This document shows positions 13,558 through 63,888 of a stretch of DNA of 64,000 nucleotides, one piece after another. The stretch comes from Carnobacterium gallinarum DSM 4847. Lineage in GTDB: Bacteria; Bacillota; Bacilli; Lactobacillales; Carnobacteriaceae. Made by a program: the position numbers and the translations under genes. The DNA lies in the NCBI RefSeq assembly GCF_000744375.1, contig NZ_JQLU01000005.1:2465496-2529495 (forward strand), written 5' to 3'. Every line of letters begins with the position of its first letter. Position 1 is the first letter of the stretch. The notes under the pieces were generated by a model. The model was not told the origin of the DNA and searched no databases. It saw only the letters and a list, made by a program, of their open reading frames with translations.

Positions 13558-13567
13558 GGTGAAAAAG

Positions 13568-46488: not shown

Positions 46489-46758
46489 ATGAAAATTGAT
46501 TCGGATTGTTTAGTGAAGTCTTATCGAGAGATTTATGAATTAGTTGGGGAGGAAAATTTGATTAAAATTTATGAGTCTTTTAAGGGGCAGCAACTTACAT
46601 TTCCAATGAAAATGTATGACAAACAGTTAGTTTCAGAAAAAGTAAAGAAGGAATATAAATTTTATAGTGTGTCGGAGTTAACTAAGAAATATGGATACTC
46701 ACAAAGATGGCTAAAAGAGCATTTTAAAGAAAAAGGAAGTGACAAGAATGAGCAATGA
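46489..46758 (+). CDS. Small Mor-like DNA-binding regulator of the BREX/CRISPR operon
   Basis: This is an 89-residue protein. YREIYELVGEENLIKIYESFKGQQLTFPMKMY followed by KFYSVSELTKKYGYSQRWLKEHF matches the Mor transcription activator layout: a dimerisation part, a FP turn and a C-terminal helix-turn-helix. The ATG at 46489 is six bases after GGGGGA, whereas ATG 46483 touches that site. It overlaps brxA and probably controls the operon from the palindromes just upstream. Whether it activates or represses cannot be read. Confidence 0.65.
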   Translation: MKIDSDCLVKSYREIYELVGEENLIKIYESFKGQQLTFPMKMYDKQLVSEKVKKEYKFYSVSELTKKYGYSQRWLKEHFKEKGSDKNEQ

Positions 46759-47323
46759 GAAGACAATAAGGCAATTATATTATTGGGAAAGTAAAAAAAT
46801 TGCCCAACAACTTAGTCAAAGCAAAACCTGGAATGAATTGGAAGACTGTGTAATGGAAGATAATTTATTTCAATGTACCTCATACAAAATGAAAAAAATG
46901 TTATTTCAAGAGATGAATGCTCGGTTTAATTGGATGGATTCCTGCTTATTAGATTATTTTTTAATATCTGATAGTGGAACGGCAAAAATAATTTTAGCGT
47001 ATACAATGATAAAAAAGGATTCTTTGTTATTTGAATGTTTAAGAAGTTTGTATTTTGAGAAACGATTATTCTTTGAAACAGAACTATCTTTCAACCATTT
47101 TGAACAATTTTTTAATTATAAAGGAAAGAAGAATAAAAAACCTTTAAAGTATTTAAAATTAGCAAAAATATACTTAGAGTGGCTTAGTGAAGTCGGATTT
47201 GTCGAGGAATGTGAGGAAGGTTTACATTTGAATCAACTAATCATTGAACCAGCAGTTGCAAATTATTTTAGACATCATGGAGATGGTTTAATTTCAGAAA
47301 TTTTATTAGGAAGATTGGAATAG
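46748..47323 (+). CDS. brxA: BREX protein BrxA (DUF1819)
   Basis: The 191-residue protein shows the Firmicutes DUF1819 pattern: IRQLYYWESKKIAQQL, a TWNELEDCVMEDNLFQ box, SYKMKKMLFQEMNARF, a FFETELSFNHFEQFF region and a late IIEPAVANYF strand. BrxA is a small DNA-binding BREX component that normally stands directly before brxB. Here cas1 follows after only 28 nt, and brxB lies about 2.7 kb further on. AAGGAAG before ATG 46748 sets the start. It overlaps the Mor-like gene. Identification is by eye. Confidence 0.8.
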   Translation: MSNEKTIRQLYYWESKKIAQQLSQSKTWNELEDCVMEDNLFQCTSYKMKKMLFQEMNARFNWMDSCLLDYFLISDSGTAKIILAYTMIKKDSLLFECLRSLYFEKRLFFETELSFNHFEQFFNYKGKKNKKPLKYLKLAKIYLEWLSEVGFVEECEEGLHLNQLIIEPAVANYFRHHGDGLISEILLGRLE

Positions 47324-47351
47324 CAGTCAAAAAAGAAGGGTGTGGGTGAGT

Positions 47352-48254
47352 ATGGCATTTAGAAATATCTATATTGAAAATCCGGCAAAACTAAGTATTA
47401 AAAAGCGACAATTGATTATTCAACAGGAAGAAATGTATACTATTCCAGTTGATGATATTTTAAGCGTAATGATTGAAACGAAACAATGTAGTATTACAAT
47501 TCCAACAATTTCTTTTTTAGCAGAGAATCAAGTAGCATTATTTACTTGTGATGACCGTCATTTACCATGTTCAGTTTTATTGCCATTAGGAAATCATTCA
47601 AGGAAATTACAAACGTTACATTTTCAAATGAACTTACTAAAACGGACAAAAAAACGAATTTGGAAAAAAATTATTCAACAAAAAATTATAAATCAAGCAC
47701 AATGCTTAGCCTTGAATGGAAAAAATCAGGTTGCAACGTTATTGGATTTAGCTAGTAGGGTTGAGGAAGGGGACCAAACTTTTTGTGAATCACAGGCAGC
47801 CCAAATCTACTTTCTGGAATTGTTTGGGGAAGGATTTAATCGGCGTCATGACCATGTTCAGAATGCAGCTTTAAACTATGGATATTCAATTTTAAGGGGA
47901 GTCATAGCAAGGGATATTTGTGCGTATGGATTGGAACCAGCTTTTGGCGTTTTTCATCGAAATGAGTTGAATCCTTTTAATTTAGTTGATGATTTAATTG
48001 AACCTTTTCGACCGTATGTTGACTTATGGGTTGCCAAAAATGTTTATTTAGAAGATTTACTGTTAACATCAAAAATGAAAAGAGAACTTTTTTCACTACT
48101 TTTTACTAAAGTTCCAATTGAAGAAGAATATCATTCTCTCGCAAATGGTTTGAAGAAAACAACAGCGTCTTTTGTAAGTTGTTGTAAAAATAATAGTGCC
48201 GCCTTATTAAAAGTACCTGATTTAATGGTACTACGGCCACATGAGTATGAATAG
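47352..48254 (+). CDS. cas1: CRISPR integrase Cas1 (type II)
   Basis: This is a 300-residue Cas1. Metal-site residues are visible in their usual places: Glu146 in FCESQAAQIYF, His202 in GVFHRNELNPFNLVDDLIEPFRP and Glu217 in the same stretch, close to E149/H205/E220 of the S. pyogenes protein. Together with Cas2 it integrates new spacers. The start at 47352 (MAFRNIYI) follows a GGGTGAG site. It is 28 nt behind brxA, with no promoter or terminator seen between them, and overlaps cas2 by 14 nt. Confidence 0.95.
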   Translation: MAFRNIYIENPAKLSIKKRQLIIQQEEMYTIPVDDILSVMIETKQCSITIPTISFLAENQVALFTCDDRHLPCSVLLPLGNHSRKLQTLHFQMNLLKRTKKRIWKKIIQQKIINQAQCLALNGKNQVATLLDLASRVEEGDQTFCESQAAQIYFLELFGEGFNRRHDHVQNAALNYGYSILRGVIARDICAYGLEPAFGVFHRNELNPFNLVDDLIEPFRPYVDLWVAKNVYLEDLLLTSKMKRELFSLLFTKVPIEEEYHSLANGLKKTTASFVSCCKNNSAALLKVPDLMVLRPHEYE

Positions 48255-48567
48255 ATTTATGCGAATTCTTGTCATGTTTGATTTACCAGTAGGATCAAAA
48301 CGAGAGCGAAGAGAAGCAGTGAGATTCAGAAATTATTTATTAAATGAAGGCTATGTAATGATGCAGTTTTCAGTTTATTATCGTATTTGTAGTGGATATG
48401 ATATGGTTAAAAAATATGAGCATAAATTAGAACGACATTTACCAAATCAAGGTTCAGTCAGAATGGTTTGTATGACGGAAAAACAATTTTCCAGCATGAA
48501 ATTATTAGTTGGGGACGACTTAGAGAATGAAAAGAAGGTAAATTCTTCAAGTTTGTCCATTTTTTAG
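48241..48567 (+). CDS. cas2: CRISPR protein Cas2 (type II)
   Basis: This is a 108-residue protein. MRILVMFDLPVGSKRERREAVRFRNYLLNEGYVMMQFSVYYRI is the Cas2 ferredoxin-like core with the conserved early Asp. It forms the scaffold of the Cas1-Cas2 integrase. ATG 48241 overlaps the cas1 stop, and ATG 48247 is an alternative. No csn2 or cas4 follows, which indicates subtype II-C. Its last three codons and stop recur at 63942, near the window end. Confidence 0.94.
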   Translation: MSMNRFMRILVMFDLPVGSKRERREAVRFRNYLLNEGYVMMQFSVYYRICSGYDMVKKYEHKLERHLPNQGSVRMVCMTEKQFSSMKLLVGDDLENEKKVNSSSLSIF

Positions 48568-48572
48568 CCAAC

Positions 48573-48611
48573 AAAAAAGCCGCAGAAACGTTGATGTTCT
48601 GCGGTTTTTTG
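48573..48611. terminator. Bidirectional terminator between cas2 and the array
   Basis: AAAAAAGCCGCAGAA and TTCTGCGGTTTTTT flank a 9-nt loop. A-run and T-run ends let it stop both cas2 transcription and leftward pre-crRNA. A diverged copy sits at 63961-64000. Confidence 0.85.
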
Positions 48612-48619
48612 CTTAGGGT

Positions 48620-49381
48620 ACTACATTATAGCTGATTCTGTAAGGAAACTATAGCACAAGTCTTTGCTGATAAACGTTAAGAACCACTACATTATAGCTG
48701 ATTCTGTAAGGAAACTATAGCAACACCTTTAACGCTTGTTTGTTTTCTATTACTACATTATAGCTGATTCTGTAAGGAAACTATAGCAGTTTGGTTGTCA
48801 TTGGGTTGTCGTTCCTTACTACATTATAGCTGATTCTGTAAGGAAACTATAGCATCAAATGTATTGTTCTTTGTATGATTCAGACTACATTATAGCTGAT
48901 TCTGTAAGGAAACTATAGCCGAGATTATGACTCACATCTGGAACGTACTACTACATTATAGCTGATTCTGTAAGGAAACTATAGCTGAATCAACGCTTTA
49001 TACCACATTGAATCCACTACATTATAGCTGATTCTGTAAGGAAACTATAGCTAGATAAACGGTAGTAATAATTTAAACGCTACTACATTATAGCTGATTC
49101 TGTAAGGAAACTATAGCGCATCCATCCATCGTGTGGTTGTTTTCGAAACTACATTATAGCTGATTCTGTAAGGAAACTATAGCCGACCTTGTCCTTTGTA
49201 ACAAAGTAATTATACTACATTATAGCTGATTCTGTAAGGAAACTATAGCAGACTAATCATATCTTTTACAACCGATTTTACTACATTATAGCTGATTCTG
49301 TAAGGAAACTATAGCCAATCAACTTTCCACCATTTTTTAAAGGATACTACATTATAGCTGATTCTATAAGAAAACTATAGC
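48620..49381 (-). CRISPR. Type II-C CRISPR array: 12 repeats of 36 bp, 11 spacers of 30 bp
   Basis: Repeats start at 48620, 48686, 48752, 48818, 48884, 48950, 49016, 49082, 49148, 49214, 49280 and 49346, an exact 66-bp period. Plus-strand repeats begin ACTACATTATAGCTG and end GGAAACTATAGC. The last (49346-49381) has two substitutions. The tracrRNA orientation shows the crRNA sense is the minus strand (GCTATAGTTTCCTTACAG...), similar in layout to Geobacillus and Neisseria II-C repeats. In that sense each repeat contains TATAAT, five bases before the spacer, so each may carry its own promoter. All 11 spacers differ. Their targets are unknown. Confidence 0.98.
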
Positions 49382-49396
49382 CCTTGACTATATATT

Positions 49397-49409
49397 ACTA
49401 CATTATAGC
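49397..49409 (-). repeat. Partial CRISPR repeat beyond the degenerate end
   Basis: ACTACATTATAGC matches the first 13 repeat bases, 15 nt after the last full repeat. It shows decay at the far end of the array. ACTACAT recurs at 49440. Confidence 0.75.
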
Positions 49410-49792
49410 ATTGTTTTATCAGGTAAGATGTTGGTTAATACTACATAAAAACACCCTATTTATTTTAAGATAAGAAGAAAGAGTCTCTATAATATTAGCT
49501 CGAAGGTTACAGCTTTTTGCTTATTTCAATGCAAAAAACAAGTGGAAAAGATTGTTATAGGTAAAGTTTCAAACGTTATTAAAATGATTTTTAAATTGTT
49601 AGAATAGTAAAAGTATGATTGGAGGTGTTAAAAATAGAGGATTCTTTATTAAATCGGCTAAATGAAGAATAGTAAAATTAAGAAAATCACTATAATTTAA
49701 ACTATTTCCGTATGTTACCCATAAGATATATGAAAAAATTTAAACGCCAAATAGAGAAAATGCTCTAAAAAGTAAATTGTTTAAACCCAAGA

Positions 49793-49834
49793 AAAATGTT
49801 AGAGCATTCTCAAAAATGTTAAAGCATTCCCAAA
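49793..49834. repeat. Imperfect 20-bp tandem repeats in the array-brxB interval
   Basis: AAAAATGTTAGAGCATTCTC is followed by AAAAATGTTAAAGCATTCCC and a partial third unit. GAGAAAATGCTCT at 49754-49766 is nearly complementary to the first unit and could pair with it. The wider region 49410-50063 has no gene that I can support. Confidence 0.6.
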
Positions 49835-49930
49835 AAAGTTAAAGAAAATTATGAAGAATACGAGCAAGCTTAACCTGCAAAATATTCATTTAACTATAAG
49901 ATACAAACTATAAATTAGTCAGGTATCGGG

Positions 49931-49964
49931 AATTATAGTTTCCTTACAACTTCAGCTAACTACT
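49931..49964 (+). repeat. Inverted, diverged CRISPR-repeat-like element (crRNA-sense on plus strand)
   Basis: TATAGTTTCCTTACA at 49934-49948 is identical to 15 bases of the repeat in crRNA sense, and TTCAGCTA a few bases later matches the next part. The element points opposite to the array and towards brxB. Its RNA could pair with the tracrRNA anti-repeat over about 17 bp, with two G-U pairs. The repeat-borne TATAAT is lost here. It may be a remnant of an inverted array end or a small Cas9-guiding RNA. Confidence 0.7.
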
Positions 49965-50018
49965 TTAAAAAATGTAATTTCAACAGAATACTGGATTGGT
50001 TGGGAAAAAATACTCACT

Positions 50019-50057
50019 AATCCTTGCTATAACTAAAAACTAATTAAGAAAAGGATT
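50019..50057 (+). promoter_or_regulatory. Stem that could cover the brxB ribosome binding site
   Basis: AATCCTT (50019-50025) is complementary to AAGGATT (50051-50057), which is the Shine-Dalgarno region of brxB. The 25-nt loop makes the stem only moderately stable. No consensus promoter is obvious upstream. Confidence 0.4.
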
Positions 50058-50063
50058 GTCGCT

Positions 50064-50645
50064 ATGTCAACAATTGTTGCAAGAATGGATGCTTTTAGAG
50101 AAAAAGTTTCAGATCCGGATTTTTCAAAAAATAAAGGCTTAGGGAATGAAATTGGTTTTCATATCTTTGACTATGATCCAAAAGATGAAGTTGAAGTTAG
50201 AAAACGAGTAGGATATATTCGTGATTATTTAAATAAAAAAGATGGGGGTGAATCTATTCAAATTTTTGATTTATATGCAATTATGATTCATTTTTTTGAA
50301 AAACGAAGTTACATAGAAAAAAATGGTCAAATGGAGCATGAAAAGGGAATTGATGTACTTTTTTCAAAAATGCGAAAAGCATTGAAAATTGCTTCGGAAC
50401 AAGATGTTTTTGTTCGCTATATCGAAGAGCATCTGATTGAGTCTGCAATTGTTGTCATTATAGGAGTAGGCAAAGTATTTCCAATCTTACGTTCACATAT
50501 CTTGCTAAATAATTTGCAAAGTGTGATTGAAGGGCAACCCCTTATTTTATGTTATCCCGGTGTTTACGAAGACAATAGTTTAAGGTTATTTAATGAATTT
50601 AAAGATGATCATTATTATCGTGCTTTTCGCATGGTTGAAAGATGA
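50064..50645 (+). CDS. brxB: BREX protein BrxB (DUF1788)
   Basis: The 193-residue protein matches DUF1788: an early RMDAFREKVSDPDFSKNKGLGNEIGFHIFDYDPKDE, a central FDLYAIMIHFFE and a late PLILCYPGVYEDNSLRLF. BrxB is a small essential BREX component of unknown biochemical role. It begins the second BREX block (brxB-brxC-pglX-pglZ), separated from brxA by cas1-cas2 and the array, so it needs its own promoter in 49410-50063. It is followed by brxC after 13 nt. Confidence 0.88.
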   Translation: MSTIVARMDAFREKVSDPDFSKNKGLGNEIGFHIFDYDPKDEVEVRKRVGYIRDYLNKKDGGESIQIFDLYAIMIHFFEKRSYIEKNGQMEHEKGIDVLFSKMRKALKIASEQDVFVRYIEEHLIESAIVVIIGVGKVFPILRSHILLNNLQSVIEGQPLILCYPGVYEDNSLRLFNEFKDDHYYRAFRMVER

Positions 50646-50658
50646 GGGATATAAGTGG

Positions 50659-53600
50659 ATGGAAATTAAACAATTATTTACAAAAGATATTACAAGAGAA
50701 ATTAAAGGTGTTATAAAAATAGGGCAAAGCGACAATGAAAACAGATTGCAAGAGTTAGAGGAATACGTTGTTACTAGCGAGTTACAAAAGCATATGCAGC
50801 AATTTTTTAGTGCATATTGTCATGCATTAAATGAACCAACAGATCGAATGGGTGTTTGGATTTCAGGTTTCTTTGGTTCAGGAAAATCACATTTTTTAAA
50901 AATTTTATCGTATTTATTAGCTAATGAACCCTTAGATAAAGGGCAACTTCCGATTGAATTTTTTGATGAAAAAATAGAAAATAAACATCTTTTTCAGAAG
51001 ATTAAACTAGCTTCTGGGCAAAAAAATCAAGTTGTTCTATTTAATATTGATTCTAAATCGGAATCAGATAATAAACAAAATAAACTAGCTGTTGTTCGTG
51101 TATTTAATAAAGTATTCAATGAAATGTTAGGCTACTCTTCTTCAATTCCATGGTTGGCTCATTTGGAAGAAATTTTAGTAGAAAAAGGGGAGTATGAAAA
51201 ATTTAAAGCATTTTTTGAAGAAGAAAGTGGATTAACTTGGGAAGAAGGACGAGATGAAGTTTATTATAATGAGGATGAAATGGTACATTCTCTTGTTAAG
51301 GCAACAGGCAGAAGCGAAGAAAGCGCTCGCCGTTGGATTGAAAATGGTGAAGAAAATTATGAACTCAGCGTGGATAGCTTCACAAAAAGAGTGTCTAAAT
51401 ATGTAGCAAATCAAGAAGAGAGCTATCGTTTGATTTTTATGGTAGATGAAATGGGACAATATATTTCAGATAATACAAAATTAATGTTAAATTTGCAAAC
51501 CTTAGTTGAAGATTTAGGGAAATTAACCAATGGAAAAGTTTGGGTTATTGTTACTAGCCAACAAGATATTGAAGCACTAAAAGAAGGTGTCGGATCAATG
51601 AATGATTTTTCTAAAATTCAGAGTCGTTTTCATTTAAAATTAAGCTTAAGTAGTGCAAATGCCGATGAAGTTATTAAAAAAAGATTGTTGGATAAAAAAG
51701 AGGAAGCTAGTCAATTACTGCAAAAAAACTATACTATTATTGAATCAAGTCTTAAAAATAAATTAGTATTCTCAGAAAAAACAGTGGATATGAAAATATA
51801 TAAAGATAAAAAAGAATTTGAAGAAGTCTATCCATTTATTCCGTATCAATTTCATTTGTTGCAAAAAGTCTTTACTAGTATTCGAGAACACGGATCTGCG
51901 GGGAAGCATTTGGCCGACGGGGAACGTAATTTGTTGGAAGCTATTCAACAAGCAGCCTTACATTATCAGAATGAGAACGTTGGATTACTGGTTCCTTTTT
52001 ATATTTTCTATGAAAGCATTGATCAAGCATTAGAACATTCAATTCGTTCTTCAATTATTAAAGCAAAACAAAGTGATGATTTGGAAGAAGAGGATATCTC
52101 TGTTTTGAAATTACTATTTTTAATTCGCTATGTTAAAGAAGTACCAGCAACACTGGAAAATCTAGTGACATTAATGATCACTCGAGTGGATGAAGACAAA
52201 TTGCTTCTTTCTCAAAGAATCAAAGCATCATTAGAGCGTCTAGAAAAATCTATTTTAATTCAGAAAAATAGTGAAGAATATGTATTTTTAACAAATGAAG
52301 AACAAGATATTAATCGTGAAATTGATCAAGTTCAAGTTTCAAATAACAAAGTGATCCATCAAATTGGGAAAATGATTTTTGAAGATATCCTAGAGTTAAA
52401 ACGCTTTTCCTATGAACCATTTGAGAATCGAAAAAGTGTTGTTTATCATTATGATATTGCGACTTGGATTGATGGGCAAGCAGTCAATAATAGTGCTGCG
52501 AACTTAGGTGTGCATATACTTACCCCATACTTTGAAGAAGCTGATTCATTAGAAAATATGATTGCTTTATCTGCTAAAAATCAGCAAGTTGTCATCATAT
52601 TAAATGAGACAAGTCGATATTATGAAGACATGTTAAAGAAAATGAAAATACAAGAATATTTACGTAGTCATATGTCAGGAAATTTATCCGAAATAACGCG
52701 TCAAATCGTTACTCGTAAAACTAGTGAACATAGTGAACTTGGAAAACAACTGAAAATTCAATTACACCAAGCCCTAGAACAAGGTATTTGTTATGTTAAT
52801 GGGATGGTCATTAAAGAGAAAGTTCATACTCCAATCATTAAAATTAATAAGAGTTTAGGTGTATTAATCGAGCATATGTATTCAAAACTATCCTATATGA
52901 CAAAGCACTATCAAGTTGATGAGTTAGCAGGATTAGTTAAATATACGCAAGGAAATATTTTTCAAGATAATTCAACAGATCCCAATCATCTGGCAACGGA
53001 AGAATTACTTCAAGATATAAAACTGCAAACAGAACGACATAGTACCATTGTCTTACGTGAAATGCTTCAACAATTTATGAAAAAGCCAACTGGCTGGCGT
53101 GAAGTCGATATAATAGCAAGTTTCATTTATTTGTTAAAAGATGAAAAGATATTTTTTAAAAAAGATGGTATAAATTATCCCTATACAGATTCCCAATTTG
53201 TACGAACCGTAACTAGGAAAAATTATCAAGAAAAAATCGTAATTGGACAAAGAAAACTAATTCCTGAAAAGCATATTAGTATCTCAATTTCATTAGTAAA
53301 AGATACAACTGGTAAGCAATTGGATCGTCTAAAGGAAGACTTATTGGCACAACAAATTAGGGAGGTCTATCAAAAACAATTGACTGAACTTGAACAGTAT
53401 CTAATGAATTACCACCATCAGTTTTATCCAGGAAAAGAATTGATTGATGAAGGGATTAAGCAAGTAAAATTAATTATTAATAAACAGAATACAGAGGATT
53501 TACTGCGTTATTTATTTGATAAAGAAGAGGAAATTTTAAGTTGCTACGACGAACTATACATTGTGAAAAGCTTTTTTGAAAATCATATGCCAATTTATGA

Positions 53601-54270
53601 TAAATCAACTACCCTTAAAGAGCGTTATGAGAAAGATTTTAATTTACTAGTGAATGAAAAAGTGAGAGAAGCGGGAAGTCAGATTTGTCAGATTTTAAAG
53701 CAAAGTCATCCCTATCATTTGTTGAAAGAACTGCCTGCTTTAAATGAAGAATTTATTAGACACATGGTGGAAGAATTGGAGATTGCTAGTGAACCAATCT
53801 TAAGTCATTTAAAAACGAGTAAAGAAGCATTACTCGAAAATATTGCGACGTATCCGAAAGCAAAAAAAGAATTAGAACGTAGTATTTTAGATGGGTTTAA
53901 TCGTTTAAAGGACAAAATAGAACATGCTGAAACCTTAAGTACTCTAAATGGATATAAATTTGAAATTGAAAATTTAACAGATAAGTATTTGCAACAAGTA
54001 CAACGAATTATAGATGCAGAAAATAGGCATGAGAAAGCTCAACAAAAGCAAGTTTCAATAAAAAAAGAATCAGAATCAATTAGTACTATTCCTGTAGTGG
54101 AACAGAAAATAAATAAGGAACCACAAAAAAAGATCTTTCAGAAAAAGGATATCTTACCAATTAAAAGCATTGATATTCAAACGGAAAATGAACTGCGTAA
54201 TTATTTAAGTGAGATTGAATCTAAACTATTAGCTGCTTTAAATGCTGGACAAATCATTCGTATTTTATAG
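50659..54270 (+). CDS. brxC: BREX ATPase BrxC (P-loop, DUF499-like)
   Basis: This is a ~1203-residue protein. The start at 50659 (MEIKQLFTKDITREIKGVIKIGQ) matches the canonical BrxC N-terminus and follows GAGGGAT. The frame stays open further upstream but overlaps brxB. Walker A is GFFGSGKSH (~70-78), and a Walker B-like LIFMVDEMGQYIS lies near residue 265. The C-terminal third is rich in helices. BrxC is the large AAA-type ATPase required for both host methylation and phage exclusion in type 1 BREX. Length is normal and no frameshift is seen. Confidence 0.92.
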   Translation: MEIKQLFTKDITREIKGVIKIGQSDNENRLQELEEYVVTSELQKHMQQFFSAYCHALNEPTDRMGVWISGFFGSGKSHFLKILSYLLANEPLDKGQLPIEFFDEKIENKHLFQKIKLASGQKNQVVLFNIDSKSESDNKQNKLAVVRVFNKVFNEMLGYSSSIPWLAHLEEILVEKGEYEKFKAFFEEESGLTWEEGRDEVYYNEDEMVHSLVKATGRSEESARRWIENGEENYELSVDSFTKRVSKYVANQEESYRLIFMVDEMGQYISDNTKLMLNLQTLVEDLGKLTNGKVWVIVTSQQDIEALKEGVGSMNDFSKIQSRFHLKLSLSSANADEVIKKRLLDKKEEASQLLQKNYTIIESSLKNKLVFSEKTVDMKIYKDKKEFEEVYPFIPYQFHLLQKVFTSIREHGSAGKHLADGERNLLEAIQQAALHYQNENVGLLVPFYIFYESIDQALEHSIRSSIIKAKQSDDLEEEDISVLKLLFLIRYVKEVPATLENLVTLMITRVDEDKLLLSQRIKASLERLEKSILIQKNSEEYVFLTNEEQDINREIDQVQVSNNKVIHQIGKMIFEDILELKRFSYEPFENRKSVVYHYDIATWIDGQAVNNSAANLGVHILTPYFEEADSLENMIALSAKNQQVVIILNETSRYYEDMLKKMKIQEYLRSHMSGNLSEITRQIVTRKTSEHSELGKQLKIQLHQALEQGICYVNGMVIKEKVHTPIIKINKSLGVLIEHMYSKLSYMTKHYQVDELAGLVKYTQGNIFQDNSTDPNHLATEELLQDIKLQTERHSTIVLREMLQQFMKKPTGWREVDIIASFIYLLKDEKIFFKKDGINYPYTDSQFVRTVTRKNYQEKIVIGQRKLIPEKHISISISLVKDTTGKQLDRLKEDLLAQQIREVYQKQLTELEQYLMNYHHQFYPGKELIDEGIKQVKLIINKQNTEDLLRYLFDKEEEILSCYDELYIVKSFFENHMPIYDKSTTLKERYEKDFNLLVNEKVREAGSQICQILKQSHPYHLLKELPALNEEFIRHMVEELEIASEPILSHLKTSKEALLENIATYPKAKKELERSILDGFNRLKDKIEHAETLSTLNGYKFEIENLTDKYLQQVQRIIDAENRHEKAQQKQVSIKKESESISTIPVVEQKINKEPQKKIFQKKDILPIKSIDIQTENELRNYLSEIESKLLAALNAGQIIRIL

Positions 54271-54292
54271 CAGTAAAGAAAGGAATGTTTTT

Positions 54293-57200
54293 TTGAATAA
54301 AGCAGCATTAAAAAAATTTGCAACACAAACAAGAACACAATTGATGACGGGTGTACGTATCCGAGCAAGTGCATTCGGTTGTACATCAGAAGGCCTAAAA
54401 GAGGTCACTAAAGTAGCAGATCAAATGGTAATAAATGGTGTACCTATGGATAAGGAAGAACGGAAATTGTATCAAAAGTTAGTTGTGAAAATGCAAAAGT
54501 ATCAAAAAAGTAGTACGTATGAATCTGCTTATGAACGTTTAATTGAAGAGGTGGCTTATACATGGTTTAATCGGATTATTGCGCTTCGTTACATGGAATT
54601 TCATGATTACTTACCAATCAGAATGCTGCTATTATCATCCAGAAATCCACTAAAAAAAGAACCAGATGCCCTAACTCATGCTATGGAATTAGTCGATGTA
54701 TTGCATCTTGATTCTAATTTGGTTTGGCAATTAAAATCAGAACAAAAAACGGATAAACTGTTTAAGTATTTATTGATACAACAAAGTAAACAATTAGGTG
54801 ACATTTTGCCTAGCGCATTTTCTACAGTAGATGATGTTGAAGAATTATTATTACCAGACTATTTATTAAATGAACATCAGATCATTGACAATTTAATGAA
54901 TGAAACAGATAAGGAAGATTGGGAAAACGTTGAGATCATTGGCTGGCTGTATCAGTATTACCATGCAGAAGTAAAAGAACAAGTTGGCGGATCAAAAAAT
55001 AGTCAGGTTGCCAAGCAACATTTGCCAGTTGTTACACAAGTATTTACACCAAAATGGATTGTTCAGTATATGTTACAAAACTCATTAGGTCGTTATTATC
55101 ATCAATTATATCCGACAAGTAAACTTTTTGATCAGTGGGAATTTTATCTTAATGAACCTCAACAAAATGGTTTTTCTCCTGAAGCAACGAGACTAGAAGA
55201 CATTCGACTAATTGATCCAGCATGTGGATCAGGTCATATTTTAATTGAGGCCTTTGATTTATTTTATACAATGTATGAAGAGCAAGGTTACCTCGCAAAA
55301 GAAATTCCTGATTTAATTATCAAGAATAATCTATTTGGCTTAGAAGTAGACAAACGGTCTTATCAAGTCAGTCATGTTGCTCTATTACTTAAAATACTTG
55401 CACGACAACCTAGATTATTAAGACAAAACAATTCGTTTCAATTCCATATCACCGTGTTTAAGGATGTCACTCAACCAATTTCGATTGAAGCCTTGGAATG
55501 GCTTTTTAATTCAGAGGAAATTGATGAAATTCGAGAGTTGGAAGGAAAATTTGAAAACGCAACGCAATTTGGTTCATTGTTAAAAATGGGAACAATCTCA
55601 ATAAACCCATTATATACGAAACTTGAAAAGTTAAAGGAACGACAAGAACTAGATTTGTATGAACAAGCATTAGCAGAAGAATTAGTAAGCAATTTAGCCC
55701 CAATTTTAAAAACAGCCCAACTATTAATACAGAGTTATACAATTGTTGTCACAAATCCACCGTACCATAATAAATACAATTCTGATTTAAAAAAATTTAT
55801 GAAAATAAATTATCCTGAAACAAAAGCTGATTTATATTCAGCCTTTATTGAAGTTTGTTTTTTTATGACAGAAAATAGTGGATATACAGCTATGATGACA
55901 CCTTATACATGGATGTTTATTTCTTCCCATGAAAAGTTGCGTCATTTTATTTTGGAAAATGGTGGAATAGCGAATTTAGTTCAGTTAGAATATGGAGCTT
56001 TTGAGGATGCAGCTGTGACAATTTGTACTTTTGTTTTACAGAAAAAGCAGAGAAATAAAAAAGGAACCTATATTCGTTTATTTGATTTTAAAGGAAGTGA
56101 AAATCAACCTTTGAAGGTGAGAGAAGCCATTATTAATCCATCTGTATCCTATCGTTATGAAAAAAACACGGATGTCTTTTATCGGATTCCCGGTGCACCA
56201 ATCGCTTATTGGGTTAGCGAAAATTTATATCAGTTATTTTCAGAAAAGAATTATAAGTCATTGGGTGAACTGTACGAGGTTAAATCTGGAATTATGACAG
56301 GAGATGACAAAAAACACTTAAGAAGATGGTATGAAATTGATAAAACAAAGTTAAGTTTATTGAATAGTACAAGTAATTTTGAAGAAAATACATTCATGAA
56401 AAAATGGTTTCCAATTAATAAAGGTGGCGGTCAGCGGTTATATTTTGGAAATCATGATTATGTAATTGATTTATATAAAGAAGGCGAAAATATTCGTTAC
56501 TCGAAAAAAAATTACCGATTAAGAGCAAAAAAATATTATTTTAATAAAGGAATTACATGGTCAAGAATCTCCTCTTCTTATTTTTCTTTTAGAATGCAAG
56601 ATCAGCGAACGTTATTTGGAGATGCTTCTCCACTAATCGTTAATGGTGATCTATTGTTGCTGGGATTTTTGAATTCTAAAGTAACAGCATATTTATTAAA
56701 AGTATTAAATCCAACTGTTAATACCTTCGTCAGCGATATTGAAAAATTGCCAATCTTATTTAATAAATCCATAGAAATAGAAAAATTAGTTAAAGCAAAT
56801 ATCCAGCTAGCCAAAGAGGATTGGGATGATTTTGAAACATCATGGGAATTTAAGCAACATCCATTTTTATCCTATCAACAGAATGAGAAAAATTTAAGTC
56901 GTATTTTTGAAAATTGGCAACAAATAACAACTGCTAGGATTCAACAATTAACGACCAATCAAAAATTAATCAATCAGTATTTTATTCAAGAGTACCAGTT
57001 AACGAAAGAATTATCACCGAAAGTTATTGATGAGGAATTAACATTATATAGAAGCAATAAAGCGAATGATGTTCGCTCCTTTTTGTCTTATTTGATTGGA
57101 ATAACATTCGGTCGTTATACTTTGGATGAGTTAGGCTTATTTTTTGCAGGTGGGAAATTTGATTCAAATGCATATCAAGAATTTCAGCCAGATCGCACTA

Positions 57201-57823
57201 ATATTATCCCAATTACGAGTAGTGGATATTTTGAAGATGATATAGTGAAGCAAATTGAGAAATTAGTGAGTTATTTATTCGGAGAGTCCATGTTAGAGGT
57301 CAACCTACAATTTATTGGAGAAGGACTCGGTTTAAAAAAGGATGAAGAAGCTAGAGAGCGAATTAGAAGTTATTTTATGAAAGAATTTTATAAAGATCAT
57401 CTTAAAATCTATCAAAAAAGACCGATTTATTGGCTATTTAATAGTGGTAAGAAAGAAGCTTTTAAGGGATTAATCTATGTACATCGTTACGATAAACAAC
57501 TCACAGCGAGATTGAGAACCGATTATTTATTGCAATTGATTACTACTTTAGGACGTTTGGAAGAATATACGAATCAAATTATTGAAATTAATGAAACTCC
57601 TCGAGCCGTGGTGAAAGCTAGGAAAGACCGAGAGAAATATAATCACCAACTGGTTGAACTAAGAAATTACCATCTTTTTGTAGAGTATTTTGCTAATCAA
57701 GAAATGGAGATAGACTTAGATGAGGGGATTATTATGAATCATCAAAAATTTGGATTGCCTCAATTTTTATTAACAAATCGAAAAGATAAAAAAATGAATC
57801 ACTTATTTGAAAAAATAGACTAA
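54293..57823 (+). CDS. pglX: BREX adenine-specific DNA methyltransferase PglX
   Basis: The 1176-residue protein starts at TTG 54293 (NKAALKKFATQTRTQL after the start residue), with AAAGGAA 8 nt upstream. This is the usual PglX beginning. DPACGSGHILIEAF (~308) is the AdoMet motif, and VVTNPPYHNKYNSDLKKFM (~487) holds the catalytic NPPY. The C-terminal half is the target-recognition region. It marks self DNA by N6-adenine methylation at a non-palindromic site (unknown here). Length fits type 1 BREX. It is intact. Confidence 0.93.
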   Translation: MNKAALKKFATQTRTQLMTGVRIRASAFGCTSEGLKEVTKVADQMVINGVPMDKEERKLYQKLVVKMQKYQKSSTYESAYERLIEEVAYTWFNRIIALRYMEFHDYLPIRMLLLSSRNPLKKEPDALTHAMELVDVLHLDSNLVWQLKSEQKTDKLFKYLLIQQSKQLGDILPSAFSTVDDVEELLLPDYLLNEHQIIDNLMNETDKEDWENVEIIGWLYQYYHAEVKEQVGGSKNSQVAKQHLPVVTQVFTPKWIVQYMLQNSLGRYYHQLYPTSKLFDQWEFYLNEPQQNGFSPEATRLEDIRLIDPACGSGHILIEAFDLFYTMYEEQGYLAKEIPDLIIKNNLFGLEVDKRSYQVSHVALLLKILARQPRLLRQNNSFQFHITVFKDVTQPISIEALEWLFNSEEIDEIRELEGKFENATQFGSLLKMGTISINPLYTKLEKLKERQELDLYEQALAEELVSNLAPILKTAQLLIQSYTIVVTNPPYHNKYNSDLKKFMKINYPETKADLYSAFIEVCFFMTENSGYTAMMTPYTWMFISSHEKLRHFILENGGIANLVQLEYGAFEDAAVTICTFVLQKKQRNKKGTYIRLFDFKGSENQPLKVREAIINPSVSYRYEKNTDVFYRIPGAPIAYWVSENLYQLFSEKNYKSLGELYEVKSGIMTGDDKKHLRRWYEIDKTKLSLLNSTSNFEENTFMKKWFPINKGGGQRLYFGNHDYVIDLYKEGENIRYSKKNYRLRAKKYYFNKGITWSRISSSYFSFRMQDQRTLFGDASPLIVNGDLLLLGFLNSKVTAYLLKVLNPTVNTFVSDIEKLPILFNKSIEIEKLVKANIQLAKEDWDDFETSWEFKQHPFLSYQQNEKNLSRIFENWQQITTARIQQLTTNQKLINQYFIQEYQLTKELSPKVIDEELTLYRSNKANDVRSFLSYLIGITFGRYTLDELGLFFAGGKFDSNAYQEFQPDRTNIIPITSSGYFEDDIVKQIEKLVSYLFGESMLEVNLQFIGEGLGLKKDEEARERIRSYFMKEFYKDHLKIYQKRPIYWLFNSGKKEAFKGLIYVHRYDKQLTARLRTDYLLQLITTLGRLEEYTNQIIEINETPRAVVKARKDREKYNHQLVELRNYHLFVEYFANQEMEIDLDEGIIMNHQKFGLPQFLLTNRKDKKMNHLFEKID

Positions 57824-57834
57824 AGGAGAAGAAA

Positions 57835-60372
57835 ATGGTTTATGAAGTCGAAGAAAAAGTAAAAAAATTATTTCAACAAGAGCAAGATATGCGAAAAATT
57901 GTTTTTTGGTATGATGGAGAACAAAGGTTTAGTCAGGAAATTGCTAATTATCAATTAGAATCAATTCAATTGATTCACGTCAATCAACAAGGTTATTTTT
58001 TGACTAAATATATAATAGAAAAACAGAATCCCAAAATGAATTATTTACTTTATTTCAGTAGTAATCGACCTGAGAATAAAGAAAATCCATTATTGGATAT
58101 GCTTCTCTATAGTGAAGAGTTCCAAGTTGATGGACTTGCTCAATTAGTTGAAAAACTAGCAATTAAATCTGAAGCAGCTAGGATAAGTATTGAACAGCAT
58201 CGTTCCTTTTTTTTAACGCCTTCTTACTTAAATAAATTTGAATTATTTAATCATGAAAAACAAATAGAAAGTGAATCTGAACTATTGCTGGCACTATTAT
58301 GTAGTTTAACGAATACCAAAGAAATGACCTTACTTGCAGTATTGATTCAGTTATTTTATGGACAAGTGACCCAGCAACTTCGATTGTGGAAAGAGGTAGA
58401 AAAGTATGACATGGATTCTTTTTTTTGGTCGCAAATGCAGTATTATTTTGGGTATATAGGGCCACAAGATATGGATATATTGATGCAGAGTATCTTTAAA
58501 ACAAAAACAGCTCAAGAATTTGATGGTAAGATACCAAAAAGTTGGGAACAAGATTTGTTAAATAAGCCGCATAATAGTGTGATTTTCATCAATCATTGGA
58601 TGAATCAAAAAGACGAAATCGATTCTTATCAAATTGTCAGCGAAAAAATGGCAGAATCTTTAAAAATTACGCAATTTATTAAAAAAAAGTCTGTTGAATT
58701 CTTAGCCAAAGGAGATACCTTTAAATTTTATGATAAACAAATCATTATTCTCTTGGCACTTCATTTGGTTGATGGAACCTTACACTACGATTTTTATGAA
58801 AAAATCCTAATTGATCGCAGATATACGTATTGGTTTCAGCAATTTGAATCTATTTATCAAACTTTAATTGAAGGAACCCGATTGTTACGTTTAGTGCATA
58901 AATTTTCTGAACAAAAACAGTTGGATACAAAAGAAAACATGTGGCATTGGTACGAACAAGAAGGGTATGAAATTGACGCTCATTATCGACGTTTCTATTA
59001 TGAATTAGGAAAAAATGAAATTGAATTGATGGAAATTTACTTATTAAAAGAGGAAATTGAAAAACGCTATAAACAAGTGTTTTTGATACCATTTAGTGAG
59101 AAATGGACCCATTTTTTTGAGTCTGATTCACTATTTCAAGTAGCAGAAACACTTCCTCAAAGGCAGTTTTATCAAGAATACGTAGCTTCACATATAGAAA
59201 ATAATCATCGGGTATTTGTGATTATTTCAGATGCTTTTCGCTATGATATTGCACATGAATTGATGCAAATTATAAATATGGATTATCGATTAACTGCATC
59301 AATCGAAAGTATGCGTGGGGTATTTCCTTCAACGACAGAATTTGGCATGGCGGCACTATTACCAAACAATAAACTTGGCATAACTACAAAAGGTGTGGTT
59401 CAAGTGAACGATAAACGCGTAGATTCTTTGGAAGCACGTTTGAAAATTCTAAAATCAAAAACTGAAAATGAAATGCAGGCAACAGCGTATCATGGAAAAG
59501 ATATCTTAGCTAAAAATCGCATGAATTTGCGCCAAATATACAATGGATCGCTGTTAAATTATATTTATCATAATACAATTGATAGTATTGGTGATCAGGC
59601 TTCAAGTGAAAATCAGATATTTAATGCAATTCAGATTGCTATGGAGGAACTTACAAGACTGATTAAAAAATTAGTGACAGATGTTAACGCCTCAAAAATT
59701 ATCATCACAGCTGATCATGGATTTATTTACACTGTTTCACCTTTAAAAAAGTTTGAAAAAACAACAAAAGTAAAAGGCGATATCTTGTCTCAAAATAGAC
59801 GCTATATGCTCAATTTACTTGCAGAAAAAAGAGCGGAAACCTTGATGTTTCAATTAGATGTAGTAGGAAATCATGAGATAGTTGGGTACACTCCACATGG
59901 TGTCCATCGATTTGCTATTCAAGGAGGAGGCAGTAACTATGTTCATGGTGGTATTTTGCCACAAGAAACGTTAATTCCAGTTTTACAGGTGAAGACTGAA
60001 CGTGGAAAAGAGCCTAAGAAAGAAGTTCAAGTTCAGTTTATTGGAGAACAAAATCGAATTACAAATGAGGTTACTTACTTGGATTTTTTCCAAATTCAAC
60101 CTGTCAGTCATAGCCATAGTCCTAAAAGAGTTCATGTTTATTTAGAAGATAACGATGGACGTAGAATTTCAAATGAATTTATTTTATTGGCTGATTCCTA
60201 TAGTGAAGAATCAGAAGAACGATTGATGCGGGAAAAATTAATATTATTTAACCAAAAGTATGAACTAACGGAAGCTTATTTTTTAATTATTCAAAATGAA
60301 AGTACACCTGATGAACAAGAGCGTATCAGATTTGTAATTGATTTGATACCTAATCAATATTATATAAAATAA
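57835..60372 (+). CDS. pglZ: BREX alkaline-phosphatase-superfamily protein PglZ
   Basis: This 845-residue protein has the PglZ domain in its second half. VFVIISDAFRYDIAHEL (~463) and the later IIITADHGFIYTVS (~622) carry the metal-binding Asp/His residues of the alkaline phosphatase fold. PglZ is needed for BREX methylation and defence. AAAGGAGAAG precedes the ATG, 11 nt after pglX. In most type 1 loci brxL follows. Here a tracrRNA and cas9 follow instead. Confidence 0.92.
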   Translation: MVYEVEEKVKKLFQQEQDMRKIVFWYDGEQRFSQEIANYQLESIQLIHVNQQGYFLTKYIIEKQNPKMNYLLYFSSNRPENKENPLLDMLLYSEEFQVDGLAQLVEKLAIKSEAARISIEQHRSFFLTPSYLNKFELFNHEKQIESESELLLALLCSLTNTKEMTLLAVLIQLFYGQVTQQLRLWKEVEKYDMDSFFWSQMQYYFGYIGPQDMDILMQSIFKTKTAQEFDGKIPKSWEQDLLNKPHNSVIFINHWMNQKDEIDSYQIVSEKMAESLKITQFIKKKSVEFLAKGDTFKFYDKQIIILLALHLVDGTLHYDFYEKILIDRRYTYWFQQFESIYQTLIEGTRLLRLVHKFSEQKQLDTKENMWHWYEQEGYEIDAHYRRFYYELGKNEIELMEIYLLKEEIEKRYKQVFLIPFSEKWTHFFESDSLFQVAETLPQRQFYQEYVASHIENNHRVFVIISDAFRYDIAHELMQIINMDYRLTASIESMRGVFPSTTEFGMAALLPNNKLGITTKGVVQVNDKRVDSLEARLKILKSKTENEMQATAYHGKDILAKNRMNLRQIYNGSLLNYIYHNTIDSIGDQASSENQIFNAIQIAMEELTRLIKKLVTDVNASKIIITADHGFIYTVSPLKKFEKTTKVKGDILSQNRRYMLNLLAEKRAETLMFQLDVVGNHEIVGYTPHGVHRFAIQGGGSNYVHGGILPQETLIPVLQVKTERGKEPKKEVQVQFIGEQNRITNEVTYLDFFQIQPVSHSHSPKRVHVYLEDNDGRRISNEFILLADSYSEESEERLMREKLILFNQKYELTEAYFLIIQNESTPDEQERIRFVIDLIPNQYYIK

Positions 60373-60386
60373 AAATCAGAAAAGTA

Positions 60387-60415
60387 TTGCTTTTTTGATT
60401 CATCTCCGTTAAAAT
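60387..60415 (+). promoter_or_regulatory. Promoter of the tracrRNA
   Basis: TTGCTT (60387-60392) and TAAAAT (60410-60415), 17 bp apart, place the RNA start near 60422, just before the anti-repeat. Confidence 0.6.
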
Positions 60416-60421
60416 GTAGTT

Positions 60422-60531
60422 AAGAGTTATAGCTGACTCTGTAAGGAAATTATAGTAAAGAGCACGTCTAACGTGCGTCTGTAAAGCACTGACCCCCTAC
60501 TTTTTATAAAGTAGGGGGTCATCTTTTTTTA
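60422..60531 (+). ncRNA. tracrRNA of the type II-C system
   Basis: The anti-repeat at 60426-60457 (AGCTGACTCTGTAAGGAAAT core) is nearly the plus-strand repeat. It differs at a few positions, some of which become G-U pairs with the minus-strand crRNA. A short hairpin follows (GCACG-TCTAA-CGTGC, 60461-60475), then a linker, then a strong terminator (GACCCCCTACTTT with AAAGTAGGGGGTC, then T7). This anti-repeat, nexus-like hairpin and terminator order matches known II-C tracrRNAs. It sets the crRNA strand and insulates cas9 from BREX read-through. Confidence 0.9.
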
Positions 60532-60542
60532 TAGAATAAATA

Positions 60543-60551
60543 TGATATAAT
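60543..60551 (+). promoter_or_regulatory. Extended -10 promoter of cas9
   Basis: TGATATAAT directly after the tracrRNA terminator and about 32 nt before the cas9 ATG. The -35 is poor. Confidence 0.5.
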
Positions 60552-60582
60552 AAAGATAAATATATTGTTTAGGAGTGGAGAT

Positions 60583-63500
60583 ATGGGGTATAGAATTGGA
60601 CTAGATATTGGGATTACATCAATTGGATATGCAATTTTAAAAACAGATAACACAGGAAATCCTTACAAAATAGAACAGATGAATTCAATTATTTTTCCCG
60701 CAGCTGAACATCCAAAAACAGGTAAATCATTAGCTTTACCAAGAAGGGAACAGCGCGGTGCTAGAAGACGGAATCGTCGTAGAAAGTTTAGGAAATATCG
60801 TACGAAAATGCTTTTTATTAAACATCATTTATTAACTAAAAATCAAATGGAAATGATTTATACAGACAGTAGAATTTTAACAGACATTTATGAGTTGCGA
60901 AAAAAAGCCTTAGATGAACGAATTAGTAATGAAGAATTGTATCAAATCTTATACTTTTTTGCAGGGCATCGAGGATTTAAGTCAAACCGCAAATCTGAAT
61001 TAACTGAAAAAGATATGGGAACAATGTTAACTGCGATTAAAGGGATTGAAGAGGTTCTTAGGAATGGCACCTATCGTACATTAGGTGAGTATATGTACAT
61101 GGATGCAAAGTATCAAGAACATAAACGAAATAAAGAAGGCTTAGATCGCTATCTAGGAACAGCCAAACGAGCTTTAGTAGAAGATGAAATTAAACAAATT
61201 CTGACGAAACAATTTGAATTGGGAAATTTGGATTTAACCAAGGAGTTTGAAGAGGCTTTTATTGGAGATGAAGAGAAAACTGGTATTTTTAATGATCAAC
61301 GAGATTTTGAAGATGGTCCAGGTAAACAGAGTCCCTATGCTGGTAATCAAGTTGAAAAAATGATTGGCGATTGTACCTTTGAAAAGGATGAAAAACGTGC
61401 TCCTAAAGCAAGTTTTACTTTTCAGTATTTTGATTTACTCAGCAAAATCAATCAATTGCGTTATCGTGAACGAATAGGTAGTGACTATCAAGAGCTAACT
61501 TCTGAGCAAAGAGAATTACTAAAAGAAAAAGTTTTGACTACTCAAAAAGTTACGTTTGCTGGAGTCAAGAAACTATTAGGTTTATCACCTTATACACAAT
61601 TTAATTTATTAAATTATGGAACAAAAACAACTCAAGAGGAAACGGAAAGTAAAACGAACTTCTATTCACTACTGAATTATCATAAATTAAAAAAAACATT
61701 ACCAGAAACTTTTTTTAAGTCGTTATCTGTTGATCAAATTGATGTAATTGCTTATGTGTTAACCGTTTATTCAAGTGATCATCGTCGTCGAGATGAGTTT
61801 TATGGCAGGTTAGCTTTACCAGAAGAAATTGTAGATTTACTATTGCCGCTTAATTTCAGCAAGTTTGGTAATTTATCATTAACAGCTATGAAAAAAATTA
61901 TTCCTTATTTAGAAACAGGAAAAGTTTACTCAGAAGCAGCTGGTTTGGCTGGCTATGATTTTCGATATAAGCAGATAGATGAGGAATATATTGAGAAAAA
62001 TGTTAATAATCCAGTTGTAAAACGGGCGGTTAAACAAGCCATTAAACTAGTGAAAAATATTGAAAGACAATATGGCTATCCACCTGATGCACTCAATATT
62101 GAATTAGCTAGGGAAATGGGTAAAACATTTGCAGATCGTCGAAAAGTGATGAAGTTTCAAGAAGAAGGGCGAAGAAGAAATGAACAACTTGCTGAGAGAA
62201 TCCGTGACTTAGGTCAGTCAGTTAATGGAGAAAATATTACTAGACTTAAGCTATATGAAGAGCAAAATGGATTTGATCCATATACTGGTAACACAATTCC
62301 TTGTAATCAAATTTTTTCAGATGTTTATGATGTAGACCATATTATTCCTTATAGTAAAACATTAGATGATAGCTTTGGTAATAAAGTTTTAGTTAGTTCA
62401 GCTGCAAATAAAGAAAAGGGCAATCGAATCCCAATGGACTATATTGGAGGCAATCCAGAGCGCCGAAAGAAATTAGAAACTATTGCAAATTCAATTAAAA
62501 ATCCTAAAAAACGTGAAAAGCTATTAAAAGAAGAGTTAACAAAAGAAGATATGGAAGGTTGGAAAGCACGAAATTTAAATGATACTCGCTATATTTCTAA
62601 GTTACTCTATGATTACTTTAGACAAACTATTCAGTTCCCAGAATTAGCAGTAGAAAAAAAGAAACGTGTTTTTGCGATTAATGGTTCGGTTACTGCAAAA
62701 CTGAGAGCGAGATGGGGATTTAATAAAGTTCGTGCTAATGGAGATGAACATCATGCCTTAGATGCTTTAGTTGTAGCATGTGTGACAGATAAGTATATCC
62801 AAGAAGTAACAAAATATAGTAAAAGAAAAGAAGTTAGAGAAAACAGTGATTTGTGGAGATTAGATGAAACACCAGAGGCTATTGAAGCAGATGTTGTTAA
62901 AACTAAGACAGACTATAATCGAATATTTAATCAAGCTTTCCCAACTCCATGGGTAAATTTTAGAGAAGAAACCAGATGTCGTATGTCAGGAAATCCATCA
63001 GAATTAATGAAGAACTATACATGGGAAACTTATACAGATGAAGAAATTGCAGATTTAAAGCCAATCTTTATTGTACGTCTCCCTAAAATGAAAACGAAAG
63101 GTGCTGCCCATGAAGAAACTTTGCGTAGTGGAAAACTTTATGAGCAAGGATTGAATATTAGTCGAGTTTCAGTTAGCCGATTGAAATTAGATAAAAATGG
63201 TGTGATCAAAAGTGGAAATGCAGAATTTTATCAAGCAGATGGCAATGGTTGGAAACTTGTTCATGAGAAATTAACAGAAGCATTATTGGCTCATGGAGGA
63301 GATGGTAGTAAGGCTTTTCCAGAGGGATTCTTACAGTATACTCATGAAGGTAAAGAGTATATGGTAAGAAAAGTTCGAGTCGTTGGGAAATCATCGTTAC
63401 AAGTACCCTTAAATACTAAACTAGCTGTAGCAGATAATGGTTCAATGATCCGAATTGATATTTTTAGAACAGAAAATGGTAAATATCAATTTGTTCCAAT

Positions 63501-63888
63501 TTATGTTAGTGATAAGGTGAAAGAAACTCTTCCTAACCAAGCTTCTGCAGGTGGTAAGAATTCAAAAGATTGGCCAGTTGTTAAGCCAGAGGACTTTTTA
63601 TTTTCACTTTACCCAAATGATTTAATTCGCATTAAGCATAAAAAAGGGGTAAAACATACTTCAAAAGACGGAAATAAGGAAGTAGAAATTAAATCAGATT
63701 TTTTTGCGTACTACAAAGGAGCTAATATCTCAACCGCTAGTATTTCTGGAATTAATCACAATAACTTTTTTGAATTTGAAGGTGTGGGCTTAGCTACTTT
63801 AATCAGTCTAGAGAAATATCGAGTGGATTACTTTGGTAATTACTATAAAGTGAATGAAAAAATACGTCAAGAATTCCACAAAAAATAA
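60583..63888 (+). CDS. cas9: Cas9 nuclease, type II-C
   Basis: The 1101-residue protein is of compact II-C length. RuvC-I is RIGLDIGITSIGYAI with Asp8. The arginine-rich bridge helix is PRREQRGARRRNRRRKFRKYR (~54-74). RuvC-II is LNIELAREMG with Glu507. The HNH core is DVYDVDHIIPYSKTLDD with His586, and RuvC-III is HHALDALVVAC with Asp727. All catalytic residues are present, so the enzyme should cut DNA. The start at 60583 (MGYRIGLD) follows TTTAGGAG. cas1-cas2 usually follow cas9 directly, but here they lie 12 kb upstream, beyond the BREX block. The PAM cannot be told from sequence. Confidence 0.96.
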   Translation: MGYRIGLDIGITSIGYAILKTDNTGNPYKIEQMNSIIFPAAEHPKTGKSLALPRREQRGARRRNRRRKFRKYRTKMLFIKHHLLTKNQMEMIYTDSRILTDIYELRKKALDERISNEELYQILYFFAGHRGFKSNRKSELTEKDMGTMLTAIKGIEEVLRNGTYRTLGEYMYMDAKYQEHKRNKEGLDRYLGTAKRALVEDEIKQILTKQFELGNLDLTKEFEEAFIGDEEKTGIFNDQRDFEDGPGKQSPYAGNQVEKMIGDCTFEKDEKRAPKASFTFQYFDLLSKINQLRYRERIGSDYQELTSEQRELLKEKVLTTQKVTFAGVKKLLGLSPYTQFNLLNYGTKTTQEETESKTNFYSLLNYHKLKKTLPETFFKSLSVDQIDVIAYVLTVYSSDHRRRDEFYGRLALPEEIVDLLLPLNFSKFGNLSLTAMKKIIPYLETGKVYSEAAGLAGYDFRYKQIDEEYIEKNVNNPVVKRAVKQAIKLVKNIERQYGYPPDALNIELAREMGKTFADRRKVMKFQEEGRRRNEQLAERIRDLGQSVNGENITRLKLYEEQNGFDPYTGNTIPCNQIFSDVYDVDHIIPYSKTLDDSFGNKVLVSSAANKEKGNRIPMDYIGGNPERRKKLETIANSIKNPKKREKLLKEELTKEDMEGWKARNLNDTRYISKLLYDYFRQTIQFPELAVEKKKRVFAINGSVTAKLRARWGFNKVRANGDEHHALDALVVACVTDKYIQEVTKYSKRKEVRENSDLWRLDETPEAIEADVVKTKTDYNRIFNQAFPTPWVNFREETRCRMSGNPSELMKNYTWETYTDEEIADLKPIFIVRLPKMKTKGAAHEETLRSGKLYEQGLNISRVSVSRLKLDKNGVIKSGNAEFYQADGNGWKLVHEKLTEALLAHGGDGSKAFPEGFLQYTHEGKEYMVRKVRVVGKSSLQVPLNTKLAVADNGSMIRIDIFRTENGKYQFVPIYVSDKVKETLPNQASAGGKNSKDWPVVKPEDFLFSLYPNDLIRIKHKKGVKHTSKDGNKEVEIKSDFFAYYKGANISTASISGINHNNFFEFEGVGLATLISLEKYRVDYFGNYYKVNEKIRQEFHKK

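Follow-up and report, generated by a model that had tools for sequence, protein, structure and literature searches.

The repeat-like element upstream of brxB in Carnobacterium gallinarum DSM 4847 is very probably a piece of the leader-distal end of CRISPR array 1 that is inverted and decaying, and thus an array relic. This origin, which the first-pass annotation had named as the plainer option next to a regulatory guide RNA, is favored by a complementary half-repeat at the array end, by flanks whose best match among the array units is the terminal one, and by the lack of a counterpart in related species. As a relic, the element itself matters little, and it records the shuffling of a CRISPR module into a BREX operon. 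The composite setting in which it was found is more surprising than the element and merits a study of its own.

Locus organization

The window, that is, the whole stretch of 64,000 nucleotides that was analyzed, contained in this order brxA, cas1, cas2, array 1, a 682-nt gap with the element, brxB, brxC, pglX, pglZ, the tracrRNA gene, and cas9, followed just beyond the window end by array 2 with nine repeats (Table 1). In all eight related loci, the BREX genes were followed, in this order, by the tracrRNA, cas9, cas1, and cas2, and then by an array in the seven whose contigs reached far enough. Since cas1, cas2, and array 1 sit between brxA and brxB in this genome, and not behind cas9 as in the eight relatives, the gene order suggests that the module has moved into the BREX operon. 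The cas2 stop region and the hairpin stretch ahead of array 1 had a copy ahead of array 2, as an alignment showed (regions 47324-50063 and L012 4430-5066). At gathering scores, the Rfam search of the window returned only a TPP riboswitch.

Table 1. Coordinates, strands, and supporting evidence of the features in and around the BREX-Cas9 locus
Feature	Position	Strand	Evidence or remark
brxA	46739..47323	+	Pfam BrxA 9.6e-26; PADLOC
cas1, type II	47340..48254	+	TIGR03639 1.2e-87
cas2	48241..48567	+	TIGR01573 2.8e-21
CRISPR array 1, 12 repeats	48620..49381	- (crRNA sense)	
12 nt of the last spacer	49331..49342	-	inverted form identical to 49963-49974 (inverted repeat I14, 100%)
Last full repeat of array 1, mutated	49346..49381	-	
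Half-repeat, leader-distal end of array 1	49397..49409	-	positions 1-13 of the array strand, 13/13
Inverted degenerate CRISPR repeat (the element), crRNA sense	49932..49958	+	array-strand repeat positions 10-36, the final two of which differ
Inverted copy of 12 spacer bases	49963..49974	+	separated from the element by 4 nt; AT-rich; p 0.05 in the unanchored shuffle of the flank
brxB	50064..50645	+	Pfam BrxB 2.6e-35
brxC, pglX, pglZ	50593..60372	+	NCBIfam BREX_BrxC, BREX_1_MTaseX, and TIGR02687 above cut-offs
tracrRNA (anti-repeat, nexus, terminator)	60420..60530	+	conserved with 8 relatives; fold z -6.28
tracrRNA anti-repeat	60427-60455	+	
cas9	60565..63888	+	TIGR01865, 750.6 bits
BREX-Cas9 composite	46739-63888		related loci L057, L058, L059, L076-L080

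One spacer of array 1 (48986-49015) matched the primase gene of the Carnobacterium maltaromaticum plasmid pL21581-2 at 33 of 33 positions, including three repeat-side bases. The 3' flank of this protospacer on the plasmid was ATCGGAAAATG, which gives an initial indication of the PAM from one protospacer. Phage searches with both arrays gave, among the matches listed (40 of 49 records in the second search), E values of 2 or worse, and the plasmid search with contig C3 gave no match. Inspection by eye revealed a TATAAT near the crRNA-sense 3' end of each repeat (48620-49409), and the terminal half-repeat retains just that part. These motifs are possible candidate promoters inside the repeats. 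Promoters located inside CRISPR repeats occur in type II-C systems of Neisseria.

Similarity of the element to the CRISPR repeat

Over positions 49934-49958, 22 of 25 bases of the element matched the crRNA-sense repeat in an ungapped comparison, and the 15 nt at 49934-49948 of the plus strand (TATAGTTTCCTTACA) were identical to it. The tracrRNA, with its anti-repeat, nexus, and terminator, is encoded on the plus strand, so that the crRNA sense of both arrays is the minus strand and the element is oriented opposite to the arrays. This bore out the earlier observation of 15 exact bases in crRNA sense on the strand opposite to the array, with the match reaching further, to 49958. The same annotation had placed the element directly before brxB; it does lie upstream of this gene, but a gap of 105 nt separates it from the ATG at 50064.

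The local score of the element was 35, whereas the highest score among 5000 dinucleotide shuffles of the stretch 49410-50063 was 31. Across the 4.04-Mb genome, the exact 14-mer TATAGTTTCCTTAC was confined to the two arrays and the element. With one mismatch allowed, five more sites were found, of which one was the tracrRNA, one was the final repeat of array 2, and the other three were at further places; the reversed pattern, used as a control, had two matches genome-wide.

The predicted duplex between the element and the tracrRNA comprised 17 consecutive pairs and two further stems, with an energy of -33.1 kcal/mol. The true repeat reached -43.2 kcal/mol with the tracrRNA, and 1000 shuffles of the element had a mean of -14.5 kcal/mol and a best value of -29.1 kcal/mol. 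Two wobbles were read by eye inside the 17-bp pairing, in agreement with the first-pass proposal of a tracrRNA pairing of about 17 bp with two wobbles.

Origin of the element

At its end distal to cas2, array 1 carried the mutated repeat (49346-49381), a 15-nt spacer remnant (49382-49396), and the 13-nt half-repeat. When this half-repeat was combined with the inverted stretch 49932-49954, 31 of the 36 repeat bases were rebuilt, and the tetranucleotides TAGC and GCTA were found at the two putative breakpoints (49410-49954). Among 21 array units, the terminal one gave the best extension of the element flanks (13, with 10 for the next best). This extension was weak statistically, since 10 of 400 shuffles did as well (p = 0.025), and the single flanks were likewise weak, with p values of 0.0225 (5') and 0.155 (3') when anchored, and 0.023 and 0.05 when unanchored.

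Conservation across related loci had been named beforehand as a check on the element, and no counterpart was found: none of the eight related species' loci had an isolated repeat-like segment upstream of brxA or brxB within the DNA scanned. From the first BREX gene detected, the scan reached approximately 1.3 to 2.4 kb upstream, and in genome G016 it covered 3.7 kb and another 7.1 kb. For G016, in which the contig stops 30 nt past cas2, the query was the repeat of the window, and for G340 it was the repeat of another relative. A search for homologues of 49382-50064 in 18 genomes of the family returned short scattered matches, the best of which outside its own locus had an E value of 3.4e-5 over 52 nt.

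Two alternative steps could have produced the arrangement. The terminal repeat may have been split by an inversion of approximately 545 bp (49410-49954), in which case the matching spacer 12-mer behind the element would be a coincidence. Alternatively, the terminal unit may have been copied in inverted form together with a piece of its spacer, for which the flank extension and the 12-mer shared in inverted form with the last spacer would speak. No choice was made between the two, and either way the element would be array debris. A counterpoint to the relic origin is that the tracrRNA-pairing part (17 bp) is better kept than the rest, as would also be seen in a guide; in a relic, this part would have been kept through a recent event or luck, and not through use. 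We infer both a rearrangement step and a lack of function of the element.

The element resembles the known degenerate leader-distal repeats in that mutated repeat fragments are present at the trailer end of the array. It differs from them in being inverted and in lying 525 nt from the last half-repeat of array 1. For the 15-nt terminal spacer 49382-49396, the target search gave a best total match of 12/15 (p = 0.105) and a best seed of 6 nt (p = 0.68).

Alternative explanations

The first-pass annotation had proposed a scaRNA-like Cas9 guide, i.e., a natural short-guide crRNA or scaRNA with which Cas9 would bind without cutting and thereby repress a promoter. We consider this improbable. The putative transcript would start near 49920 and would consist of a guide of approximately 12 nt ending at 49931 and the repeat part, which would pair with the tracrRNA. 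A TATAAA at 49909-49914 stands at a fitting distance for such a start, and the predicted tracrRNA duplex was stronger than those of 1000/1000 element shuffles. However, the plus-strand scan gave neither a promoter-like site at threshold from 49620 up to the element nor a terminator, the plus-strand fold z was -0.19, and the element was absent from the DNA scanned in the eight relatives.

The search for targets of the nucleotides upstream of 49931, which had been suggested as a check, gave no support either. The seed scan covered 46.0-64.7 kb with a loose PAM, which rests on one protospacer, and excluded the arrays and the element. The longest seed among the 2820 sites measured 4 nt, a length that all 200 shuffled guides reached as well. 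The last 8 nt before 49932 had no other match in the window or in the 14.5 kb behind it. Elsewhere in the genome, the 10-nt seed had three more copies, compared with one for the reversed control. By eye, two of these sites lay in apparent genes, one a UmuC-like ORF and the other an ORF resembling the binding protein of a transporter, and the third lay among short ORFs of doubtful status; none of the three was seen as a promoter. Directly after the copy in the UmuC-like ORF stands ATCGGACA, which resembles the sole observed protospacer flank ATCGGAAA and speaks for a guide, but this site is inside a coding region and was taken as a chance occurrence.

Passages of Guzina et al. (2018; PMC6199352) describe the scaRNA of Francisella novicida and predicted type II scaRNAs, with array remnants filtered out. 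Like the scaRNAs in these passages, the element is a crRNA-sense repeat-like segment outside an array with a predicted tracrRNA pairing; unlike for them, no promoter or terminator was found around it on its strand, and no target was found. Under the filter described there, it would arguably be an array remnant, as the half-repeat 49397-49409, which can be counted as part of array 1, lies between the element and the array. In Streptococcus pyogenes, tracr-L serves as a natural single guide; according to passages of PMC11417352, it belongs to the tracrRNA transcript and has its match in the cas promoter. A short match guiding Cas9 to a promoter would follow the same principle, whereas the element stands apart from the tracrRNA and has no match in the locus. 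A Neisseria scaRNA is dealt with in passages of PMC13431127.

It is very unlikely that the rearrangement left an inverted terminal unit that gives rise, in this lineage, to a putative Cas9-bound RNA with a guide of approximately 12 nt, which would bind without cutting and tune BREX or another gene. If true, the element would be a control link from Cas9 to BREX in an operon family with cas9 at the usual place of brxL. We know of no other case of a Cas9-to-BREX regulatory link.

A second or degraded tracrRNA on the minus strand, with the element as its anti-repeat, is likewise highly unlikely. In its favor, 21 of 25 bases also matched the tracrRNA anti-repeat, a weak terminator-like hairpin was present on the minus strand at 49878-49864, and a comparable lone anti-repeat-like stretch was found after pglZ in G016. 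However, a covariance model of nine tracrRNAs, with which this candidate was rejected, gave 7.0 bits for the element versus 106.4 bits for the real gene, and most array repeats of the window reached 14-19 bits by chance resemblance. There was also no nexus, and the minus-strand fold z was -1.66, versus -6.28 for the real tracrRNA. The earlier statement that a second tracrRNA is unlikely for lack of a nexus and terminator therefore stood as to the nexus and the overall verdict, but not entirely as to the terminator, given the one weak hairpin.

The lone stretch in G016 (L057, 14015-14043) scored 6 bits as a tracrRNA, and the true tracrRNA was located approximately 490 nt further. It may be what remains of a tracrRNA duplication.

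A chance match within AT-rich DNA, for which the three one-mismatch 14-mers elsewhere in the genome might be cited, has a negligible probability and is refuted for practical purposes by the shuffles, 0/5000 of which reached the score of the element, and by the genome-wide pattern search, in which the exact 14-mer outside the arrays was found only at the element.

The BREX-Cas9 composite

At the level of the order, a Cas9 match at E ≤ 1e-100 was found in 10 of 395 genomes, including the genome under study. G282 was excluded as not judgeable, since its Cas9 starts at the contig end. In all eight judgeable close relatives (54-66% identical), cas9 was located behind brxB-brxC-pglX-pglZ on the same strand, and brxA was detected in four of the eight. 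At the level of the class, nine of 398 genomes had a Cas9 match, again including the genome under study, and the other eight were 37-42% identical. No BREX genes were found near these eight class-level Cas9 genes in upstream stretches of 0.35 to 14 kb, those of G457 and G618 being too short to judge. A Cas9-BREX link, which had been suggested earlier in regulatory form, exists as a conserved gene order, but the element is not among what is conserved.

BrxL (PF13337) was missing from eight of the nine BREX-Cas9 genomes, including the one under study, and in the ninth, G340, it was on another contig. For comparison, 15 genomes with related BREX and without Cas9 in the stretch examined were picked by hand from 34 loci. 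BrxL was present in 14 of them, in each case just past the BREX end by coordinates (Fisher p = 1e-4 for BrxL absence versus Cas9 neighborhood, with relatedness ignored). Cas9, Cas1, and Cas2 occupy the place where brxL usually stands. A BREX operon without brxL, followed by the tracrRNA, cas9, cas1, and cas2, suggests that the two defense systems are inherited as one unit, and it raises the question whether Cas9 stands in for BrxL. No literature joining Carnobacterium maltaromaticum with CRISPR and BREX was found, and the passages of a 2026 BREX survey (PMC12839542) that mention CRISPR contain no Cas9 association.

In three relatives, the Cas9 match contained one in-frame TAA each. The locus L077 of G312 carried an extra gene between the tracrRNA and cas9 (13370-14495), which appeared Fic-like by eye. 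Smaller insertions were present between the tracrRNA and cas9 of other relatives, as putative cargo inside the composite.
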